In this document: positions 1-41,487 of the stretch, piece after piece
How the letters are laid out: every line of letters starts with the position of its first letter
Position numbering within the stretch: the first letter of the stretch is position 1
Position numbers and translations under genes: made by a program
Notes under the pieces: generated by a model
Databases searched by the model: none
What the model was told of the DNA's origin: nothing
What the model saw: the letters and a program-made list of their open reading frames with translations, nothing else
NCBI GenBank assembly: GCA_949128115.1
Contig: OX421961.1
Location: 125,491,050 to 125,555,049 of the forward strand
DNA length: 64,000 nucleotides
Origin: Anaspis maculata
Lineage: Eukaryota; Arthropoda; Insecta; Coleoptera; Scraptiidae
Reading direction: 5' to 3'

Positions 1-2113
1 TTCGGTAGTAGTTGCACAATCCTAAGAATGCGCGGACATCTTTGTGCTTTTGTGGAGTGGGAAACCTCCTGATAGCCATGACCTTCTCTGGATCAGCCTT
101 GATCCCCTCCGTGGTCAGGATGTGGCCAAGAAACTTTACCTCGGTTTGGAGAAAGGAGGACTTTTCTAAGTTCACCGTCATCCGGGCAACTTTTAGCTTC
201 TCCAACACCTTCGCGAGGTGCCCAAGGTGCTCTTCCCAGGTAGCCGAGGCCACCAGCAGGTCATCAATATAATTCACGGCAAACTCGCGTACCTCCGGAC
301 CAAGCACAATGTCCATGGCTCGGCTGAAGCTCCCAGTCGATGTCTTCAATCCGAACGGCAACCGCGCGTATGTGTACGACCGCCCGTTGTACAGAAAAGC
401 CGTGTACTTGCGGCTGGCAGGGTGCAGCGGGATTTGCCAGTAGGACGATCGCAGGTCAATAGTGGACATGACCCTCACATCTCGGAAGTACCGCAGTAGT
501 TCTTCCGGTGCCGGTGGAGTTTCGGTGTCTGCCACCATCTTCTCATTGATGGCTCTGGCATCCAGACAAATTCTGACAGTCCCATCTTTCTTTTTTGTCA
601 CAGTCATTGGGCTCGCGAATGAAGAGGCTTCTCGTCTTATCACCCCCAGTCTCAGCATCTCAGTGATCGTCTCTTCTACAGCCGGCCGCAACGCGAACGG
701 CACTGGGTACGGCCTCTGAATGAACGGTGTGTCATCATGGAGTTCGATGCGGTGCTCATACAGGTGCGTAACTCCAGGTTCATTCTTGAAGATGTCTTCA
801 GAGTTGATGAGAATTCTCATTAGCTCACTCTTCTGCCTTGCACTGCAGCTCAGCTGATCAACCTTGCTCTGAAGCTCTTGTCTGATGCTTCCCTTTGGAG
901 TTCTAGACGTCTCAGGAGCAAGGGTTACTTCTACGTGACAGGCATCAGCGGGATCGGCACCTGCTTGACACCCCTTCTCAATAACATGTTCACCCCTTTG
1001 AAATTCTACTTGAAGTTCTTCTCCATCAACTCGAAGTTGCAACAGCTGTTGCTCAAAGTCAATCGTAGCCTGGGTGTAACTGAGCCAGTCGGCACCCAGA
1101 ATCAAGGGTTTAATTAGGTTACGCACAATCAGGGCAGGGACCTGACACACCTTCCCCAGGATCTGAAGGCTGATGTCGCTCTGTACCACAATTCTGCAGC
1201 TTTTCTGTCCAATAGCCCCCCTCAGCTGGATTGCCGTTACTGGCAGTGTCGCCGGACGTCGTCCTGTTGTCAGAATGGCCTGCCACATATCCTCTGATAG
1301 GCAGCTCACTTCACTGCCGGTGTCTACAAGTGCACGGGTAGGCACCCCCTCCACCTGGCAAACGATTTCCGGGGTCACCCTATATGGTCTGGGATCAGCA
1401 TCCTCAACTGCATCCTGCAGACCTCGGTGCAGGGAAAGTATTCCAAAGCTTTTCCCTTCTGGGGTCGACACTTCGTCGTAGGCGAGGTACGAGTCACTAA
1501 GTGTGGCTTGTCTTGGTATCCGTGTGTTGTCGTAGATCCACACCTTGATCGGAGTATTCTCGAAGGTATTCTTAATTAATCCTTCAACCGTTCCCCAGTT
1601 CAACCGGTCAAGTCCACATCCAATCTTTGGCATCGCCAGTTTATTTAGTCCCGAGAGCCGACACTCTCCTCTAAGTACTTCGAGACATTCCATTAGAGCT
1701 GCGTATGTAGGTTTCTCATACGACCTCTTCTTGGTGACGAGATACAGAATCGTGCGGTCAGCACAGACCAGTTTTGCCACCTGGCCAACTCTCTTCTTCT
1801 GGTCCCTCAGTTCAGCCTCACCCTTAAATCTCTTCCTGACTTCGGCTGCAATCCCACGGGACATTTCGAAGTCCTCAGCCACACAGTGAACAAGAGCAAA
1901 GTCGCTTGGTGCCGTAAACACGTCCCCCTCGAGTACTTGAATGTGTGGAGCTACTTGGATACCGTCACGGCATGGCGGTCCCTCCCGCATTCGCCCCCCT
2001 GGGTAAGTCATTGAAGATGGTCTTCTGGGCGGCCGCGAAAGGTGAGCGGAAAATTGGCCTAATGGTTTCCCGCTCGGGCTCCGTTTCCCGAAGCCGTGCC
2101 ATTTTTCCTCGCC
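1..2113 (-). CDS. pol: Pol polyprotein: TARG1-like macrodomain, aspartic protease, reverse transcriptase (3' truncated)
   Basis: The open frame starts after a TGA at 2114-2116, overlaps the end of gag by 55 nt in the -1 frame and continues open to base 1 (about 700 codons). Domains in order: (1) macrodomain at about 1945-1525, with LEGDVF, ALVHCVAEDFEMSRGIA, LVTKKRSYEKPTY and MPKIGCGLDRLNW, matching the OARD1/TARG1 family including its catalytic Lys (TKK) and Asp (GLD); (2) retropepsin with active site ALVDTGSEVSCL at about 1300-1335 and the distal ILGADWL; (3) reverse transcriptase from about 720, with TIDLRSSYWQIPLHP, LPFGLKTSTGSFSRAMD, the catalytic YIDD at 260-271 and FLGHILTTEGIKADPEKV. 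RNase H and integrase lie outside the window. Pol is probably made as a Gag-Pol fusion by -1 frameshifting. The macrodomain in this position is unusual. Confidence 0.93.
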
Positions 2114-3516
2114 TCATTTCCCGTCTTAGACCACCGTTGCCACTCCTTCCCGTTTCCACGATTATTCCCATTGAACGAATTCCGATAGTTGTATCGATTG
2201 GGCTGTTGCCATGGCCTCGATCCTGCTGCTACAGCTCTCGCTGGTTCTCGCTCGTCCCGTCGTGCCACTTCGGGCTGAAGCACAGGGGTCTGAGCCATCG
2301 GGAACGTAATTGGGGGTACAATCGGTGGTGGTGGATACATCATCGATGGCAGTGGCGTTGCTGGGTAAGTAATTTGCGGAATGGCCGGTGCCGGTTCAAT
2401 GGCTTTGGGTGCACGGTGATTCGTCTTTCGTTCATACGGTCGCTGGTCCCGGTAGTCCCCCCGGTAGCCACCCTCTCGGAGTCGACCGGAGCGCCTAGTG
2501 TTCTCGTGTCCGTTCGAGACATCATCTTCCATCTCCTCCAAGAATCTTGCCGTTGCCACAATCGTGCGGCACTGCTTCTCTCTTTTCCAAAATCTTTGGA
2601 TATTGCTGTCATAATGCCTCATAATTGTCTTCACCAGACTTTCCTCACTAGGTGGGCAGGTGAGTAATCTGGCTCTTTCCACCTGGTAAGTGAAGTGCTC
2701 CGCGAGTGAGTATTTCCGAGTCACGTCATATTCTCCATCTTCAATCTGACGCCGGATATACTTTTGTTTGATGTCGGACCAAAAGTAGTTGAGAAAATCC
2801 TCCCGGAAGTCTGCGTAGGATGTCCACTCAACTTGGTGGACACTCGCCCATCTCTTTGCCTTGCCTTTCAGACACTCCATCACAAGGTTGATGGTTTGCT
2901 CGTAGTCCATCTTCCCCTTCCTCGCGCACTCTTCTATCTTCTCGATAAACACCATCGGATTTCCCACTCCCTCGGTACTTTCGAAGCTCGGCCTTGCAGG
3001 TAATGGAGCCGCTTGATTTACCAGCGCTCTTAGCTGGCTTCCCAGATCAGCTGGCGTCAAGTTCCGGCTGGGTGCGTCCATTTCCATCGCGCCGGATGTA
3101 GCTGTGGATAGTCCACTTCTCATCTCAGCGAGCGGTTGTTCTTCCGGTCCTCCGCCGACCTCGAGGACAGCCGGTGCTTCCGGTGCGGCAGTCGGCGGAC
3201 GAACGACCTCCTTCAGCGAGTTCATCGCCTCCACGAACGTCGCCATCATCGTCGCCTCGCGCTCAGCTTGTCTTCTCTCCCTTTCTTCATTACGGCGTTC
3301 CGCTTCGTCTTGACGTCGCCCACTCTCTTCATTGTAGCGGAAGAACCACGCAGGAATGAGGTCCTCCTCAGGTGCTACCTCCCGATTTGCGCCCTTCCTC
3401 AAATTCGAGCGGCTCCGGGAACGTTCCGCTACCTGGATTTTTCGCGGGTTCTTGCGTCCTGCCATCACGACCGTAATCCTATCGTTTGAGAATAATCGCA
3501 TATTAGCACTCGTCAT
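2059..3516 (-). CDS. gag: Gag-like polyprotein of the retroelement (485 aa)
   Basis: One uninterrupted frame of 485 codons upstream of pol. An N-terminal basic stretch is followed by a charged Glu/Arg-rich, probably coiled-coil segment (about residues 65-100). Next comes a retrotransposon-gag-like helical region (about 180-330) with the motif AKRWASVHQVEWTSYADFRE and a following DFLNYFW segment, typical of Ty3/gypsy capsid domains. Then there is a Pro-rich linker and an Asn/Arg/Gly-rich basic tail. I see no CCHC zinc knuckle, so RNA binding probably relies on the basic tail. The first Met is taken as the start; a second candidate is at MAGRKN, 17 residues in. The stop at 2059-2061 lies inside the pol frame, which is displaced by -1. 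Product identity comes from motifs and position, not a search. Confidence 0.85.
   Translation of the reverse strand: MTSANMRLFSNDRITVVMAGRKNPRKIQVAERSRSRSNLRKGANREVAPEEDLIPAWFFRYNEESGRRQDEAERRNEERERRQAEREATMMATFVEAMNSLKEVVRPPTAAPEAPAVLEVGGGPEEQPLAEMRSGLSTATSGAMEMDAPSRNLTPADLGSQLRALVNQAAPLPARPSFESTEGVGNPMVFIEKIEECARKGKMDYEQTINLVMECLKGKAKRWASVHQVEWTSYADFREDFLNYFWSDIKQKYIRRQIEDGEYDVTRKYSLAEHFTYQVERARLLTCPPSEESLVKTIMRHYDSNIQRFWKREKQCRTIVATARFLEEMEDDVSNGHENTRRSGRLREGGYRGDYRDQRPYERKTNHRAPKAIEPAPAIPQITYPATPLPSMMYPPPPIVPPITFPMAQTPVLQPEVARRDEREPARAVAAGSRPWQQPNRYNYRNSFNGNNRGNGKEWQRWSKTGNEARKNGTASGNGARAGNH
2065..2089 (-). promoter_or_regulatory. Two tandem GGGAAAC heptamers, probable -1 frameshift site between gag and pol
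   Basis: On the minus strand the heptamer GGGAAAC occurs at 2089-2083 and again at 2071-2065. Both are phased G GGA AAC relative to gag, the arrangement needed for simultaneous -1 slippage. The second lies two codons before the gag stop. Slippage at either moves ribosomes into the pol frame, which is open there. G GGA AAC is an established retroviral slippery sequence. I did not model a downstream pseudoknot. Confidence 0.75.
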
Positions 3517-4643: not shown

Positions 4644-5007
4644 TCATTTACATCACCGTCTGTTTTTTTAAATACTTGCGACTAATCATCCTGGTTCACG
4701 CAGCACCATTTTGTAACATAACCCTTCCCTAGCCATAGTTTCGGGACCGTCTAGGTTAACATAAATAATTAAGTCTGATACTTACACCTTCGGTCTTACC
4801 CTGTACCCCTCGCCGGGGCTCGAGTATCTCATCCCTTCTTTCCTACGTCATGTCCCTTACCCCTTTCCCCCTATTTCACACCCGCCCCTCCGTCGTCGTC
4901 GCTGATCACCGCTGACGTAATTAGCCCTTAACTGCTTGTTAAATGAGTTAAGCCCACTAATTACGGGTTCCACAGCCCCTTTCACTTTGCTTCCATTCCC
5001 TATCATT

Positions 5008-5023
5008 CCCCCCCCCCCCCCCC
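5008..5023. repeat. Poly-C run (16 C)
   Basis: Uninterrupted homopolymer of C, or poly-G on the other strand. Its length may be unreliable in assemblies. Confidence 0.9.
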
Positions 5024-5760
5024 TTTTTCGTTCTATGATTAGTGATTTAAAACCACAGACCTTGCAATGAAATGATAACAGACAACCTTTGGACCACACT
5101 TAGATTTATTTGTACATAAGAAATTGATTGTTCAATTGGCAATACATCGAGTACTTAGGCTAATGATCAAATTCGTTCGCAGACTATAATAATTCTGGCC
5201 GACTGACTTCGCTCTAGCGGGCTCAGAAGCTCTTATGTTAATTAGACTAATTTAGTTTCGCTAGACGCGCAAGCTCTCAGCGACAACTACCTAACCTGAA
5301 ATTCCCTACATTTTACAATCGAACGGCGGGGAGGCATTGCACCCCCGAGTTGAACAATTTCAACTGGAAGGAGGGATGCTGCCGCCACACCGTTGAGATG
5401 AAGCAACGCTAACTAGTCTACCTGTCACGGCGGGCGATTATGTTGTTCCTGAAAGAAAACCTGATCAAACCTCTGAGAGACGTCCCTGACTGAATCTAGT
5501 TAAAAGGGTTACCTAACAATGCAGCTGGCGGCTTCTCTCGTTTTTCCAACGATTTACACAAGCATATTTCAAGGCGCCAAATTTCAATACATGTACATAA
5601 ATATTCGAATTACAATCTAAAATATTTCCGTATTTCGAACTATGATTCCTGTGTCTAGGCTTTAATTTGCGGGACAATTTTGATTGTTCTCCTGTAGAAA
5701 TGGGCTTTTCGATCAGCTCACTGACCCTCACCCCCATTACGTTATTTTCGTGCCAAGGTG

Positions 5761-5792
5761 GCTCCACTGCATCTCGCCCAGAGACTTTTATA
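5761..5792 (-). promoter_or_regulatory. Candidate LTR core promoter (TATAAAAG plus initiator-like GCAGT)
   Basis: The minus strand reads TATAAAAG at 5792-5785, with GCAGTGG about 24 nt downstream (5770-5764), close to arthropod TATA-initiator spacing. It points towards gag. It could equally be a chance match in AT-rich DNA. Confidence 0.25.
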
Positions 5793-5800
5793 ATTAATGA

Positions 5801-8175
5801 GGAAATCGTACCTTCAATAACGCATCTTCGTCTTCCCGAATTTTATAGCACACACGGGCATGGTGTAATGTTTTCCGCAGGGTGCATAAAAGGAGTTTCT
5901 GACCTACTTAGTCGGCCTAACCTATATTCTCGGCCTGGGCACCGACGTCTTCTTGAGTCACCTGAAAAGCTGCTATCTACCCTAAGGAAGCACGGCAGTC
6001 TATTGTGACTTTTTACATCAATTTCAAATTACACATGAAATAATGAACGGACCAAATTTATATTACTAATCTTGTTATTTGGGAGGACTTATTCTTTTCT
6101 TTACGATGGCCAGTTTTCTTCAGTCGCTGGGCCGGAAGTGACACAACTTACAGATGAATATACGACCCCCGCGACCACCGAGCCCTCGCGGAAACGCTAT
6201 CATGCGAGACATGCAAAGTTCCCTAAACCCTCGAAACCACACGTTCGCCGAAGCTGTTCACTAGGCCTTCACGTTCTTTTTTTAATACATAGGTATTCCC
6301 ATCGGTGGCTCTTGAACTTTCGCCGGTCATTGGCGACTCAGACTAGGTTTTTTTCATCGAGCTAGTAGTCATCACTCGCCGAACTGACAAACAAAAAGGG
6401 CTTCAATTCCGCGGCTCAAAGTGCACCATGGCTTCCTATCTTAACGAAGGGGTCGGTTGTGATAGCGGTACTACACCGCTTATCCTTATTACGGCGACTC
6501 GGTCCGTTAATTGAACATGGTGGGATTTGCTCCCACGTCAATTGCTGACAATCAAATAAACAAACAAACCAACAGACAAACAGAACAGAACCCACCCTGC
6601 GGTCACATTCACCAGCCGTCATTAGTGATTTTCAGCAACAAGTAATTCTACTCTGAAACATTGAGGTTGAGGCCCTCTGACACAAAATCATAGTCGAACA
6701 TTTTATACGGGAAAACATAATTACAGTCTAACACACAATGAAGGGGCACCAACCTTTCTCTGCTATCAATCGTTGACAGGAACTATTCCTTGTTATGTTT
6801 CACAATCAGGCACTTAGAAACACTGAACTCGCAGACCCCACTAAGTTTCCCGTGCACAAGTAATCGAGATCTCGTGAACACTGCAAAGCAAATAACTCCC
6901 ACACCTTGAATCCCAACAAACAATTCTACGATGACTATTTAGCACCCAAATGTTCCACAAACCCCAATTTAACTCTAAAAGCAAATGATTATCAAAGACG
7001 CGACTTCGCGAATAAATCCTTCCCGAGTAGACTCGATTCTGCTTACAGAAATTCACAATGGAGAATTTTAGACAAAGCTCGAAATATTCACAAAATTAAA
7101 TCTCCCCAAGTATATCGGATTTTACTCAAGCAATATATTTTTATAGCAAGTCTTAGACAAAATTCGGAACCGTCACGAAATTAATTTCTCGACCGTTCGC
7201 AAGACCGTCTCAATCGTCACTCCTGAATTACGCTCTTCTTTTCCCATAGCTCAGATTTTTCCATCCCCTCTTGTGGCTTAAGTCATTGACCAATCCCCGA
7301 CCTATTCAAAAACCACCCTCAGCTTTGGATTCGCTGAGTAGCTTTGTTCGGATTGTCCCCTCTCCCTTCACAGCCCGCTCTGGTCGCGGCCTGCAATTTT
7401 GATTTCTCACACCACCCCATAGATGTCATCCCGTGTCGTATTCCGTTGGTGCCACTTACCTACTTTTCTACTTACTCAGTAAATTTGAACGAATTTGACC
7501 TAAGCTTATGCCCTTACTATAGTGGTTTGACTTCCCGATGCACACACTAGTTTAATTCATTTATTTTCACGAACATCGCGGTCTTATCGTTTGCAACTTT
7601 CCCGGCTCCCAATAACATGTTATTTGGTGTTTTATTCACCTGTGCGTGCACGCGAATTCAACCACCATAGTACTGGCCATTACAGAACTAGAATAACACT
7701 TTTAACATTCAATTAACATAGATTCGCGCAAAGTCCGTTGTTTTCGTCATTTCCACATACATTGGGGGTTGGTCGCTCGCCCTGGTCCCAGCGCAGCGGG
7801 GTCCTTTGATGGGTTCGTCGTCTAATTCACCCTGATTCCTTTACACGCCCATATGGCTTGGATTTTTCGGTTTTATGTCGAACGAAGTTTATGTGTCCGG
7901 GCACCTCTATTGGCAATTAATACGTGTTGACTTAGTCTTTCACCGAAATTTTCGCGCACACGAAGATTAAATAACGTCTGGTCCTTTTTTGGGTTTCCTC
8001 CACCGCGTTCCCACGATTCTAGGCATCATCTGTTTTACATTTCGCCTTCCGGACACTAACGGCTCGTTTAATAAAATTGTTTGTGCATTCTCTTCTCGGT
8101 CAGGATCTTACAGTATCTATTTTTTTTTCCGGTTTTTTGGCTTTGGGTTTTCCCCATTAGCCAGGGGCATCTATA
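5801..8175. other. Gene-free stretch
   Basis: Only short open frames with no recognisable protein motif and no obvious inverted repeat. Part may be LTR U3 sequence of the retroelement to the left. I see nothing else I can support. Confidence 0.5.
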
Positions 8176-33700: not shown

Positions 33701-36700
33701 AACCCCACCCCCTATTTGGGGGTTGGAAAAATAATTTGTGCCAAAATTCATAATTCGACAAAATAGAACCATCTGCATGACTTCCAAACGTAATCTCGAA
33801 TTTGATACTCACAAATAGGGGTTGGGGGCGAGGGATGGGGTTGATTTTTGCACAAAAGAAAAAGGGAATTGTCATGAGCCATATGTGTTAAAAAGGAGGT
33901 TGAAATGTTCTCACTTACGTTGGAACAAATTCTTTTACTTTGAAATAATCCATCTTCAACCCCTTATAGACAAAAAACTGTCCATTTTTTTGAGTAACGG
34001 ACGATGGTTTTTGACTCGTGTCGAATTGGGCTACAACATATAAAAAAATTAGAGAATTTGACCGAGACCCATTTTCCATAAGAATCGTGCGGGGTCCTTT
34101 ACAAAACATCAAATTTGAAGGTGAAAAAATCAAGTTTTTTTCCTAATAAAACCGGGTCAAACACGTCTCTATCGATATTTCACACTTATTTTTTAGAATC
34201 CGACTGTGTGGTTCGGTTAGAAATGATGCCAAACATGTTAAAAAAGGTGTCAGTCACGGTTCAATATAGGACTTTGTGAAAAATCGTACCCCGGCTCCTT
34301 CGCAGCCCTCTGGTACGCTACTGGTGCATTACACTTTCTGGAAATTTATGCATTGTGTTCCTCCACCTCGAAAATATATAGTCCAATGAAAAAAGTACAA
34401 AAAAGCAAAGATTCCAAAAATTGTAACTTCTTGGACCTTCGACCACCAATACCAAGGATCTGCCAGAGGTGGCAGGTGGGCTCCATTTCTTAAAATGAAC
34501 CATAGGGTATGTACAACATTTCTGCCAAGTGGCATCCCGGCATCACGATTTGCAAGGTTGGACCCAAATATGGCACTTAGCATCCAGACTAGAAGGTTCT
34601 TCAAACCATCAGAAATCGATGGCTCCCAATAGGTGGCAGATAGCTTTCGTTTTGAGCTGTCAGCACTGTCAACGATGTCAACCCCAGTACGCGTCCCTTC
34701 CAAGTGGCCATATCCATGTAAACAAGAGCTGCCTTCCTTCTAGAGTTAAAAGTGACCAGAGTAACTGATCGAATCACAGCCAAAAAAAAAAGCAGTAAAC
34801 TTGATCTTTTACGCACGTGAGTAACCCCAAGGTCCCTGGTGATCGGTCGATAGGATTTTGGCACTTGAGGAGACAAAAAAAGAGTCTGTATCGGGCACTT
34901 TTGAGCTTTAAAAGGAACGATCCCTCTGTCAGATCACTTTGACTCCCGAGTTATCCCGAGTCATAAAAGGAAGACAACTAAGGATGTCAAAAAATGACCA
35001 TCCTTGATTTGTGTTATCAGTAGGTGAAAAACTTGGAGGACTTACGCCGAGCCCACTGAAGGCTGGAATGAAGTAAACGCCATCCGTGTCTGGAACACTG
35101 GCGGCGATATCGCAAGTTTCGGTGGCGCTCTTGACGAACCCCGCCGTCACCAGCCAGTCCATGAGCGTGCCGCAGTCGTTGCAAGCGGCCTCGCCCATGT
35201 ACGCCACTTCTTTCTGAACCTTCCACGCTATCAGCGGGTAAATTCCGGTGACGCTCGTGTGGATCTCTCCGGCGGTGTTGACGTCCAGGAAGGCTCCAGT
35301 TCCGAGCGTCACCTTCAGATCGTCCTCTTTGAAGCAGCACGAGGCGAACATCGAGGCCGACTGATCGGCCATCACGCAACGGATCGCGATCGGGTTGCCG
35401 AAGACCCGCGGATCGGTCGAGCCGAAATCGAAATCCGTATCGACGACTTCGGGAAGGATGCGCGGCGGAATTTTGAGGACGACCTTGGCCCAGGAACCCC
35501 ACTCGGAGACGAACGGGTCGTAGAACGCCGTCGCCGAAGCATTGGAGACGTCGGTCAGGTGTTTGCCCGTGAATTTGTACAGCAGCCAAGTGTCGACGGT
35601 TCCGAACAGGGCGTTGTTTTCGGCAATCTCTTTTCTCAGTTCTGGAATGTTGGAGATGGCCCACAGCAGTCGGCCTGTGACGTGGTTCGGCGCGATTTTC
35701 AAGTTGCTTCCGGTCAAATAGCGCTTGTTCCTCGTGAACACGTAGAGACTGTAAGCTGCCCATCGGAATGTCTGCAAAAAGCACAAATATGATTGATTGT
35801 ATCATGCGCGCATGAAGGAAGAAAAACCTGAAATATCAGAGATTTGTTGATTCTTTTGCACAAGTCTTTGGATCGGATGTCCTTCCACGTGATGAAATTG
35901 TGGAACGGTTTGCCATTGTCACGTCGCCATGTGGTGAAGGTCGATCTTTGAGTCGATATGCCCAAGCATTTGATGTCTTTGGCAGTCAGACCAGCATCTT
36001 GAAAACGTATCAGAGTAAGTATAGGTATACGCAGAGGGTTATTCAGATATTTAATGAATATTCATTGTATATTTTCACAAGATATTCGCCTCATCGTTCT
36101 GATTCGGAAAATGCATGACAATATGCCCTTCATTTTCAAATCAAAGATCCATTTTTTCGTTTTCTGAATATTGATAACTCATGAACAGTTCTGAAAAATT
36201 CGCCCTAACTTAGGCTAGATCACTTTGCAGGCACTGTCTTATTCCTACCTATCGAATTTCAGGTGAATTCAGCCAATGGCAATGAAGTTACCAGGTTCGC
36301 AAATTATTTGGCTTCATTTTTTCCCTCGTAACACCGATGTCACTGGTTGGATTTTAGTTGAACTCGACAGACAGGTAGAAGTGTTTGCAAACTAAACTAG
36401 GCTAAATTTCAGCAAATTAAAAAAAAATCAAAAAAAGACGAAAAATAAATTTTTGACACCCTGTATTTTTCTTAGTAAGCGAATGAAAGGCATGTTGTCA
36501 AATATTTTACGAATCAGAACGATGATGAGAATATTTGTCAAAATATTCAAATGTTAAATCTGAACGTACCTCGGAATGTACAGTACAGAATACAACAATT
36601 TTTAATAATACTTCTCATCCCACTTCTGAATGAATCAGTACAATGAAACATTGTAATAATGTGAATGTTGATCCAAGTGCTTGTTTCAGAAGTGGTTCGA

Positions 36701-37516: not shown

Positions 37517-39972
37517 GGCACCACACCTAATAACATCAATAATTCATTATTCAGTAATAAAAAATTATAATAGCTATTGTTAAATGAAAAGTCGAACATT
37601 GACGATAACATGACAACAAACTTCACCTAAATACTTACGAGTAGTATTATGCAATCAAAATTTTGAAAATAATTTAAAAAATAGGTACTCCATACATATA
37701 TTTAGTTTAATGAATGAAGTTCCATGAATCACTAGAAGAAGAAGAAGCAAAAAATAACACACAAAGTGCTTTCCAGTCGGAGATACTGTTGCGATTCTAA
37801 TATATCCGGACAAATAAAAACTTTGTTGTTATTCATGTTGATGAATGATGATTATTTTGGTAGGTAGAACTTGATACGTAGATGCCAACTCACTAGAAAA
37901 TTCGAATAAATGAAATATTTCTCACCTCTTACCACAAAAACATCAATGATTAAAAAACTAAATTAGCCGCCGAGCTAACCTTATTTGTTTATTATTGAAC
38001 TTTGAATGAATGGCCGCGACGGTAAGCAGGTTCGAACGTACTATGCCGAGTGAAATCTGCTTCGAAAGCCGTCATAAAAACTACTATCTTGGAATTTGAA
38101 AGTGGGACCGAGTTCAGTGTTTATCTTGTTATTTACACGTGTTGCAGTTATTAATGCGCATGCTTCCTATTGACGAGTTTTATCAAATAAACAACATTTA
38201 TTTTCTTATTTACCCTTTGATTCAAATATACAATAATTCCGTGTTTAAAAAAAAGCTCAAACTCTGTCAGGAACCTGTGGTTTTGACGAAAAACTATGAA
38301 TTATTACATTTTTAAGCCTCATCCTCATCATTAGAGAGTAGCAAAGGCTTATTATTATTCATCGTGACCGCTTTTTTTACTTTATTTTATTTTTTTCGTG
38401 ATTTTTGCTTGGCAGGCTGGTGAGTACTTAGTTTTGTGACGCTGGCTAAATCTCTCATATTTTGCATATTTATTAATAAAGGTAGGTATCAAGTTTGTTG
38501 TCGCTAACGCTGACAATAATCGGATCTTATCGGATGTTGCATTTAAGGACGACGGTCAACAATAAACAGTTTTTAACCAAAAATATGTACACTTCCAAGT
38601 CTAAAGTTCGTCATATTCTACATATCGGAGAGCTCAAAAGTGCACCGCTTAGCTGATGAATCCGGCAAGGTTTCGAACGGCTCCTCCGCCAATTGTACGG
38701 GTTTGTGGCTTATCCCCGAGTCGGAGTCTCCGGATTTTGAGATATATCCCCGAGTCGAGTCGAACTTTACGAGCAGGGAATATCGTGACAAATCTTCCTG
38801 ATCTTCCAAATTGTTATTTATCAATATAACAATAATATTATTAATATTTCCGCTCGATACACCTCTACTGCATTTGAAGACAAGCGGTCCGCTATGAACA
38901 ATAATTTTTGACAACAAATGGTGGTGGGTGGTGGGCGGTACCGACTACCTGTATCACTTATAGTATTTCATTCAATTATTTAAGCACTATGAATCGCCCA
39001 CAGCACCAGTATTGAACTGGAATGCGATAAGAGGTAGCGAGCGGATAAAAGCGAAGTATCTGCGATATTTCCAAGTAGATAATTGTTGGCGTGTATTTAT
39101 TGTAAATACGTAACAATATTAAAAATCCACATTTCTGCAACTACTGCAACTACTGCTACTGTAGCATGAAGCACAAGATCAAGCATTTTTGCGATTTTGG
39201 TTGTGCGAGGAGTTGCTAAGGACAATTTCCTTAGCAACTTCTCGCACAACAAAAGTAATGTAATTTATCCTGTGTATCAAGTCAGAGTGATATTAGAGAT
39301 GCAAATTTTTTATATGGCTTGCGGAAAACTCTGAGCTTTCCAGTGAACCAGTTAAGATTGTTATCCGAATTAATTTCACCCAGAAAAAGAATAAAACAAA
39401 TAAAGTATGGTTCACCTTGTAGGTTGTGTTTAGAGAATTTGAGGAATGTGACATTTTCATACATTGAATGAGAGATTATAGGCTTGTAACAGAGCTGGAA
39501 TTGGTTTTTGTCTGGATTGATTCGATAAAGATAAAAAATACTGAAAACAAATTGATTTCACCCTGTACGTAGGATACCAGCGGCTATAGAGGGGTACATT
39601 TTCAAAATGTTCAATAGGAAACTATAGGGTTGCTAAATAATGAGAGATTGTTTTTCTCGAGAATTGTTTCATCGAAATAAAAAAACTCAAAGATCTATTT
39701 TTAAATTTTCACTTTGTATACTGAATAGTAAGCGTCACAGGGATGTATGCCTTCAACATGTTAAACAGGTGGGGATGAGCTAACCACAGAGCAAAAAACC
39801 GTTTGAGAACTACTTTCTTCAAGCAAGAGATAATTTTTTCACTATTCCAAGTACACTATCAGTCGAGTTATTGTAGTTATTATTAGTCCCAATCTGAAGT
39901 CAATGAAAAGGTAGGCATTTAGGTACAGCCACAGTACACCACTAGTTGAATTATGTTGTTGTTGTTTTAGAT
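37517..39972. other. Region between the divergent GK5 and SIAH-like genes
   Basis: Should contain both promoters and the SIAH-like gene's non-coding first exon. I see a small perfect hairpin at about 39190-39246 (TTGTGCGAGGAGTTGCTAAG against CTTAGCAACTTCTCGCACAA), one copy of the dispersed CCCGAGTCGGAGTCTCC repeat and a lone CACCCTGTA terminus near 39560. No additional gene. Confidence 0.5.
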
Positions 39973-41487
39973 ATGGCGGAATGTTCAGGCAAAAAGTGCA
40001 CCCTTATCAAAAAGCTCTTGGACAGTAAAGCCCTTAACTGCCAATCCTGCAAGAAGCTTCTGCAAACACCAGCCTTTTTGGTGGACGCTGTGGGAAATGT
40101 TTGTGAACAGTGCATGTTGAAAAACGAGTGGAAGGGCCTCCGCAATGAAATTTTCGATGTGTTTATCAAAGACTTGATCATCCCGTGCGAGAATGTCAGC
40201 GTTGGCTGCAACGAAGAAATCTCACACCAGCATTTTGAAGAACACTCGAAGCTCTGCAAGTACCGATCTGTAGAGTGTCCACACCAAGAATGCACATGGA
40301 TGGGATGGCAGGATGGCTTGTACAATCATTTTTTAGAAAGTCATGAGGCAAGTGTGATCGAGAGTGATACTTTCTGCTTCGAACTGAACTTCCAAGAAGA
40401 ACCACCCGTGACTTCCACCAAGCTTTTGGTAAAAAGGGGTCTGAAATACATCTTTGTTTTGAAGCAAGATAAAGAAGCAAACGAGTTAGCTTGCGCCTTG
40501 TTCAAATTCCACGAAGGCGCTCCATCTTCAACAACAGTCATGTTTCGCAACCCTCCACTTAAAGAATGTCATTCTTTTGAAGTTGATCTTAACCAGTTGG
40601 ATCTGATCGACAAAGATTATGTTATTGCGAAAATTAACTTGAAATCTCTAAGATTGATGTTGCGTGAAGATAACGATAAGATGTCAATTACTGTGGATTT
40701 GCCACCAGCCGAATTTCTGTTACAAAATCTTGAATGCCCTATTTGCAATGAATCTATGGGGCCTCCAATATTTCAGTGCTCAAAAGGCCACACTATCTGT
40801 AAAAATTGCGTTGAACGTTTAGAAAAATGTCCCAGTTGTACTGCTGTTATCAGTAAGGATATCAGAAATTACCATCTTGAGAATTCAGCAAGCAATATGT
40901 TTTATCCATGTGCATACAAAACTGCAGGTTGCAAAGCTGTTCTTTCAGGGGACGACATCATGAATCACGAACCTAAATGCTTGTATCGCCTCTTCCAGTG
41001 TCCTATGGATGATTGTGATTTCAAGTACAATTCTAAGACTGTTCTTGATCATTTAAAGGTGGAACATCAAGATTTAACAACAAAATATCAATTTTCATGT
41101 CAACATGGACAGTACGAACCTGGAATATCTGAAGCTTTCATGTACATAGATGGCAGTTTTTTCCATCTCACTTACAAGCGTACATGTAAAGTTTATTATT
41201 ATAACCCTTTTCATGGATATAGTAATAAGATTGAGAAACACATAACTACTGTGAATCTTAAATTTGAAAAGTTGAATTCGGACAAAATGATTGGTCCGTT
41301 GTATTGTAAAATCACCTTGACGAATTTAACAGATGAAGCTTCAGTAACCCAAATTCAGCATTTAGAGAACGTCTGCGATGGTGATGAGTACTCTATTTCT
41401 GTTCCACTTGGAGCTTTTGCCGATTGTGTTGATGCATCACGAGAGGGCGATTTGTGGTTTGAGTGTGAACTCTTGATGCAGGTTTAG
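39973..41487 (+). CDS. SIAH/SINA-like RING E3 ubiquitin ligase with two tandem SIAH-type modules (504 aa)
   Basis: SIAH proteins are RING E3 ligases with paired zinc fingers and a substrate-binding domain that direct proteins to the proteasome. Single coding exon; a splice acceptor TTGTTGTTTTAG ends at 39970 and the first downstream ATG is at 39973, so a non-coding first exon is likely. Module 1: degenerate RING-like LNCQSCKKLLQTPAFLVDAV (about 22-48), zinc-finger part with IPCENVSVGCNEEISHQHFE and KYRSVECPHQECTWMGW, then a beta-rich segment. Module 2 (from about 252): canonical-looking LECPICNESMGPPIFQCSKG, HTICKNCVERLEKCPSC, then YPCAYKTAGCKAVLSGDDIM, YRLFQCPMDDCDFKYNS and a C-terminal beta-rich domain. 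Ordinary SIAH has one module of about 280-310 aa, so this is a fused duplicate. Module 1's RING lacks the full Cys/His set and is probably not catalytic. No close orthologue named. Confidence 0.9.
   Translation: MAECSGKKCTLIKKLLDSKALNCQSCKKLLQTPAFLVDAVGNVCEQCMLKNEWKGLRNEIFDVFIKDLIIPCENVSVGCNEEISHQHFEEHSKLCKYRSVECPHQECTWMGWQDGLYNHFLESHEASVIESDTFCFELNFQEEPPVTSTKLLVKRGLKYIFVLKQDKEANELACALFKFHEGAPSSTTVMFRNPPLKECHSFEVDLNQLDLIDKDYVIAKINLKSLRLMLREDNDKMSITVDLPPAEFLLQNLECPICNESMGPPIFQCSKGHTICKNCVERLEKCPSCTAVISKDIRNYHLENSASNMFYPCAYKTAGCKAVLSGDDIMNHEPKCLYRLFQCPMDDCDFKYNSKTVLDHLKVEHQDLTTKYQFSCQHGQYEPGISEAFMYIDGSFFHLTYKRTCKVYYYNPFHGYSNKIEKHITTVNLKFEKLNSDKMIGPLYCKITLTNLTDEASVTQIQHLENVCDGDEYSISVPLGAFADCVDASREGDLWFECELLMQV

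Follow-up and report, generated by a model that had tools for sequence, protein, structure and literature searches.

The window analysed here is a 64,000-nucleotide stretch of the Anaspis maculata genome (contig OX421961.1), and a minus-strand long terminal repeat (LTR) retroelement makes up most of its left end. From sequence similarity and predicted fold, we identify the first module of this element's Pol polyprotein as a TARG1/OARD1-type macrodomain, a chance resemblance being excluded. The element spans 13,473 bp (G000:C1:125485689-125499161) and continues past the left window edge. It is of the Ty3/gypsy type, having both LTRs with a target-site duplication and the order protease (PR), reverse transcriptase (RT), RNase H, integrase. 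Its features, in window coordinates, are:

1532..1951, minus strand: TARG1/OARD1-type macrodomain, predicted N-terminal module of Pol (phmmer against the PDB, Lys/Asp dyad, predicted fold)
1061..1372, minus strand: retroviral-type aspartyl protease (Pfam RVP, residues 214-317 of the pol open reading frame (ORF); gag-asp_proteas, residues 218-311)
116..595, minus strand: reverse transcriptase core (Pfam RVT_1, 1.6e-27, residues 473-632)
1..2011, minus strand: pol reading frame, ATG at 2011, crossing the left window edge to L009:3090
2089-2083 and 2071-2065, minus strand: two GGGAAAC heptamers in the Gag frame, within the Gag/Pol overlap (from sequence)
2059..3516, minus strand: gag ORF, 485 aa, without a Pfam match
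4691..4708, minus strand: putative primer-binding site (TGG...), 3 nt past the LTR (from sequence)
4712..8112, minus strand: 5' LTR, 3401 bp
8113..8116: target-site duplication GTAT (4 bp), second copy immediately left of L030:5639
about -5360 (L030:5639), beyond the window edge: start of the other 3401-bp LTR

PR and RT share the frame of the macrodomain, and RNase H and integrase were located in the adjoining stretch L009. The last pol sense codon (L009:3090, window about -1909) lies 1.9 kb outside the window, and since pol stops about 45 bp short of the other LTR there is no space for env between them. The LTRs, unusually long for a Ty3/gypsy-type element, show a single substitution in 3043 bp, the remaining 373 columns holding one gap and no mismatch. 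Given these near-identical LTRs and the GTAT duplication in the flanks, the element is a young insertion.

Identity and predicted expression of the macrodomain

Residues 21-160 of the translated segment window:1516-2011:- match the human OARD1/TARG1 chains 4j5r, 2eee, 4j5q, 2l8r and 2lgr with E values of 1.2e-36 to 2.4e-36 (phmmer, PDB). An AlphaFold model built from 36 sequences reached a pLDDT of 88, and a Foldseek search with it returned TARG1 on top, with TMt 0.93-0.96 and a root-mean-square deviation of 0.9-1.1 to the crystal chains 4j5q/4j5r/4j5s, TMt 0.86-0.87 to the nuclear magnetic resonance models, and 44-45% identity. The first-pass annotation, made from the letters alone, had read such a domain with both TARG1 catalytic residues at 1525..1945, as the first Pol module of an LTR retroelement and in one frame with PR and RT. 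The PDB and structure matches bear out its identity, the ORF reading and Pfam matches bear out its setting, and the position was essentially exact.

The TARG1 catalytic residues are given as Lys84 and Asp125 in an excerpt of PMC9411070, the second being printed as Glu125 in an excerpt of PMC7050489. Counting along the TARG1 sequence, the window K and D align with Lys84/Asp125, and both columns are invariant in 36/36 sequences of an alignment whose rows were picked from the best matches. Across 60 distinct genomic copies (63 extracted domains, three of them fetched twice; mostly best-scoring and hence biased toward conserved copies), Lys is present in 59 and Asp in all 60, with L025 judged by eye. 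The exception is L058, with K changed to E, and a stop lies inside the domain in L003 and L006.

Of the in silico checks suggested in the first-pass annotation, structure prediction returned the TARG1 fold, whereas Pfam Macro (PF01661, gathering 22 bits) did not report the window copy at E<=0.01; a check by Pfam only would therefore have overlooked it. The gathering score was passed by the element copies L026, L033 and L035 and by the public proteins P0125 and P0126; the public proteins P0124 and P0121 fell under it and the copy L031 was unreported. Pfam annotation thus overlooks some TARG1-type domains in Pol, which calls for caution. The nearest curated prokaryotic model is DarG (DNA-deADP-ribosylase), whose score of 40.1 bits stays under the NCBIfam equivalog cut-off of 250.

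Relative to Gag, Pol lies in the -1 frame, which is open from 2113; a third heptamer match, GGGAAAT at 2122-2116, lies ahead of this opening. An identical GGGAAAC is found in the overlap of a second family, F2 (L026:1030), and the RNA segment 2100-1975 folds with z=-2.67, 2/200 shuffles being equally stable. The simplest reading of the sequence is that Pol is probably reached by -1 ribosomal frameshifting at GGGAAAC, which would place the macrodomain at the head of Pol.

Copies, lineages and positions within Pol

In a genome census in which 150 of 478 candidates were scored, all 150 matches had E<=2.5e-27 and 137 were without a stop inside the match. The window family, F1, accounts for 16 of them at 96-100% identity, and ten of these keep the entire 1341-aa frame open. 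Over 3.5 kb, the window copy shares 98.7-99.7% identity with 14 further F1 members (L025 was left out of this comparison). That other copies of the element keep the segment, as the first-pass annotation implied, is seen in the GLD motif carried by the F1 copies, at least 16 in number: a DNA pattern for MP[KR]IGCGLD gave 17 matches, namely these 16 and one OARD1-like exon (L067). The domain of family F2 is 57% identical to that of F1 (nine matches with frames of 1394-1637 aa, plus one degraded match at 58%), and its layout is gag, linker, macrodomain, linker, PR, RT (L026 read; L034 partly). Together, F1 and F2 form lineage A. Three lineage-A relatives (L084, L085 and L086; RT 72%, 61% and 48% identical) lack the domain in the stretch from gag to PR, as judged by a profile search with filters off that gave no match. 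The branching of F1, F2 and the 72% relative is compatible with three pairings (p 0.24-0.40).

Beyond what the first-pass annotation had seen, further elements carry this kind of domain elsewhere in Pol. It lies in the Pol of at least four divergent Ty3/gypsy-type lineages, A-D, whose RTs are 32-48% identical. In lineage B (L032, L033) the order is PR (read in L033), a degenerate macrodomain half, the macrodomain and RT; in lineages C (read in L005-L008 and L035) and D (L031, L036), which are distinct by RT, it is RT, RNase H, macrodomain, integrase. Most of the remaining scored matches resemble lineage C by identity and frame length, the layout itself being read in the five copies named. Lineage C may also bear a likeness to errantiviruses. 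Against TARG1 the domain gave 4.5e-40 in D, 7.1e-40 in C and 1.1e-29 in B. The degenerate half of lineage B (L033:2083-2412, L032:1094-1369), upstream of the intact domain, lacks the dyad and is 43% identical between both copies; hhalign gave it a probability of 94.6 and E 7e-8 at 14% identity. The domain thus stands before PR (A), between PR and RT (B) or between RNase H and integrase (C, D), and these three positions require at least three insertions or moves inside Pol.

Three C-like and two D-like copies (L090-L094) are without a macrodomain between RNase H and integrase. The distance between these two domains is 243 aa in D versus 103-109 in the D-like copies, and 336-392 in C and C-like carriers versus 199 in macrodomain-less C-like copies, so that the excess in carriers is about one domain, plus a linker in C. 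In a tree of RNase H and integrase, from which L090 was excluded because its stretch starts too late and for which the tool warned of long branches meeting, D groups with the D-like rows (80/80), the macrodomain-less C-like rows have no supported place relative to C, and a single clade of C and D carriers is rejected (approximately unbiased test, p=3.8e-5), requiring at least two changes. We favour a count of four gains, although a single acquisition at the RNase H-integrase position followed by two losses is equally short. A first tree of the macrodomains placed A-D together, with the protein P0012, at 53/83; in a second tree, without the long rows P0012 and Bacilli_P0016, B, C and D grouped at 87/83 with A elsewhere, and a clade of all four was not rejected (p=0.33). 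Judged from these trees, transfer of the domain from one retroelement lineage to another appears as likely as repeated capture from a host.

Selection, origin and the host PARP-like genes

Synonymous sites are saturated between families (pS 0.79-0.84 for F1/F2, two C families and two B copies), and the corresponding nonsynonymous differences (pN) in the macrodomain are 0.277 (F1/F2), 0.305 (C) and 0.296 (B). Four adjacent in-frame stretches gave pN values of 0.185, 0.294, 0.328 and 0.374. Two further adjacent stretches (upstream in A, pN 0.49; in B, 0.48) were set aside, since the former is mostly Gag out of frame and the frame of the latter is broken in L032. By this comparison of sequences, the macrodomain is under purifying selection.

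The proposal that the domain is a captured host gene stood in part. In its favour, the domain clearly belongs with animal OARD1/TARG1, and relatives of the element are without it at the same place; however, unrelated OARD1-type proteins resemble it as closely as the host OARD1-like exon L067 does. L067 is not evidently the recent donor, being 27-41% identical to 26 macrodomains (36% to F1) and no closer to those of retroelements; it may not be the true host OARD1, the protein search for the host gene having been swamped by retroelement copies. About seven head-to-tail partial self-copies with a spacing of ~200 bp lie 5' of this exon (L067:1429-3024; G000:C1 near 19395144, minus strand).

Comparable arrangements exist among public proteins. 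P0125 (1406 aa) carries RT, RNase H, macrodomain, H2C2 and integrase by Pfam and is 64% identical to lineage C in the macrodomain region, and P0124 has gag, PR and a macrodomain (phmmer 6.4e-22) in a frame heading toward RT, which as yet has no RT match, corresponding to layout B. These two proteins and P0126 may derive from the same or related hosts. The search for public counterparts of F1 itself brought up nothing close, with 50% as the best identity. Three related public proteins of 738-746 aa (P0121, P0122, P0123) contain an internal TARG1-like domain ~50% identical to that of the window; a Pfam scan of P0121, the one of the three scanned, found no retroelement domain. P0126 (626 aa) combines a macrodomain with a GDSL/SGNH domain and in our reading resembles ORF1 of a long interspersed nuclear element (LINE), and P0026 (Pyrocoelia pectoralis) has, again by our reading, an integrase-tail-like start followed by a macrodomain. 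In a BFVD structure search, the window domain matched VP8 of Kadipiro virus (39% identity) and proteins of virga-, negev- and flavi-like viruses associated with thrips, which suggests, on predicted structures, that similar macrodomains recur in insect-associated RNA viruses.

Proteins of the PARP12/ZAP-like mono-ADP-ribosyltransferase kind are tied to antiviral defence in vertebrates. A PF00644 search of the host genome gave 16 PARP-catalytic matches, seven of them within C4:72.20-72.50 Mb (G000:C4:72198149-72498837) and further pairs at C7:60.3 Mb and C1:36.7 Mb; these counts are of exons, so that genes may be fewer, and one match has a stop. For the two cluster frames read (L095, L096), the nearest solved structures are ZAP/PARP13 (2e-21, 3e-24) and PARP12 (5e-18, 6e-22). 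Unlike the aligned ZAP chain, both frames retain the FHGT motif, which we take to hold the NAD-binding histidine. Genes of this kind seem to have multiplied in this one host, a circumstantial impression drawn from this single genome.

Proposed role and alternatives

We lean, with somewhat better than even confidence, towards a particle-borne ADP-ribosyl hydrolase that acts against host ADP-ribosylation, a reading in which frameshifting, activity, packaging, substrate and opponent are all inferred. The macrodomain would be translated within Gag-Pol through -1 frameshifting at GGGAAAC and packaged alongside the other Pol enzymes (RT, integrase). Inside the particle or the pre-integration complex, Lys84/Asp125-type chemistry could then remove ADP-ribose added by the host to Gag, RT, integrase or cDNA ends, the source most likely being PARP-type mono-ADP-ribosyltransferases of the host. 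The three places within Pol suggest that presence in the particle outweighs a fixed neighbour. Use against a PARP-type defence, also proposed in the first-pass annotation, has a circumstantial basis in the purifying selection, the four lineages and the PARP12/ZAP-like cluster. The substrates of TARG1, according to the part of PMC7050489 consulted, include ADP-ribose linked to Asp/Glu, entire chains of it, and ADP-ribose at the ends of nucleic acids.

Two observations weigh against this role. The nearest RT relative (72%, L084/L087) is without the domain and has a 1255-aa open frame, so that the domain is dispensable, and the catalytic Lys of L058 is gone despite an open frame of 1468 aa.

A wider scenario, which we hold only tentatively, is that retroelements of this host share a mobile pool of TARG1-type erasers, passed among distant Ty3/gypsy lineages and perhaps to LINE-type ORF1 (P0126), set wherever the Pol frame holds and countering an expanded PARP12/ZAP-like family of the host; genome and retroelements would then be locked in an arms race over ADP-ribosylation. 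A precedent for such exchange may lie in the LTR elements of bdelloid rotifers, where GDSL, DEDDy and dUTPase sequences are common to several retroelement classes (PMC5408684, in part). In both cases unrelated retroelements within a single host have an accessory enzyme in common, which suggests an exchanged pool; the rotifer enzymes are others, however, and judging from that portion of the source GDSL and DEDDy are separate ORF3s, not a Pol module.

Alternatively, the domain could help repair by clearing ADP-ribose deposited by DNA-damage PARPs at cDNA ends or on integration-gap proteins, which would let integration finish. We regard this as rather unlikely, although TARG1 is a PARP1 interactor and takes ADP-ribose off the termini of nucleic acids by hydrolysis (excerpt of PMC7050489), thymidine-linked ADP-ribose is also its substrate (excerpt of PMC9411070), and the nearest curated prokaryotic model, if far under its cut-off, is DarG. 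The macrodomain precedes integrase in C and D, as this alternative would have it, whereas in lineage A it lies before PR, distant from integrase, and its patchy occurrence among relatives is more in keeping with an arms race than with a requirement shared by all.

The position in C and D would equally suit a reader that binds ADP-ribosylated chromatin and directs integration, the role supposed for the chromodomains of chromoviruses; we give this tethering function a lower probability still. Some macrodomains are readers (PMC7050489, excerpt), and the dyad-less degenerate half is retained in both B copies read; however, nearly every copy read retains both hydrolytic residues, and the A and B positions do not adjoin integrase. 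Chromovirus integrases carry a C-terminal chromodomain (PMC2774666, excerpt), likewise a captured chromatin-related Pol module, while the module described here is of the eraser type and occupies three other places.

That the domain is a passive passenger, a captured fragment useless to the element, is already disfavoured and very improbable: some relatives manage without it, but nonsynonymous change is low against saturated synonymous sites, the dyad is kept, several lineages carry the domain, and 137/150 matches are stop-free. The reading as a host OARD1 gene, or as the product of an assembly join, that merely lies beside a retroelement is in practice refuted by the 16 copies at separate sites, by gag upstream and PR-RT downstream in one frame in the copies read, and by the comparable public proteins P0125 and P0124.

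The Pol-borne domain differs from TARG1/OARD1 (C6orf130; ALC1-like class) in context: predicted fold, identity and dyad are alike, but TARG1 is a free-standing cellular enzyme and the domain here is a predicted enzyme, a module within retroelement Gag-Pol. Coronaviruses too carry macrodomains, and viral macrodomains counter host ADP-ribosylation. The nsP3 macrodomain of alphaviruses helps replication, and the viral domains are classed as MacroD-type in the part of PMC7050489 seen, in contrast to the TARG1 type borne by this virus-like element. Macrodomain-bearing LTR elements are not wholly unprecedented, since some epsilon-like endogenous retroviruses of ray-finned fish have additional macro-domain ORFs (the 2016 review PMC4977317, citing Basta et al. 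2009; excerpt). These are likewise LTR retroelements with a captured macrodomain, but theirs, as that text has it, is a separate ORF in Retroviridae-like elements. The novelty is a TARG1-type domain inside Ty3/gypsy-type Pol, at three positions in four lineages, of which we found no report among open-licence papers judged by title and the opening of the abstract.

Conflict over ADP-ribosylation is known mainly from RNA viruses. Should the domain be an active eraser, the contest over this modification would extend to retrotransposons and their host, with one enzyme recruited repeatedly into Pol at differing positions, and the Pol-borne TARG1 domain and the PARP12/ZAP-like cluster would form a testable pair within one genome.

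Elsewhere in the window, an ORF at 39946-41487 (plus strand) has Sina zinc-finger and RING matches, and another at 34929-35786 (minus strand) matches FGGY carbohydrate kinases.
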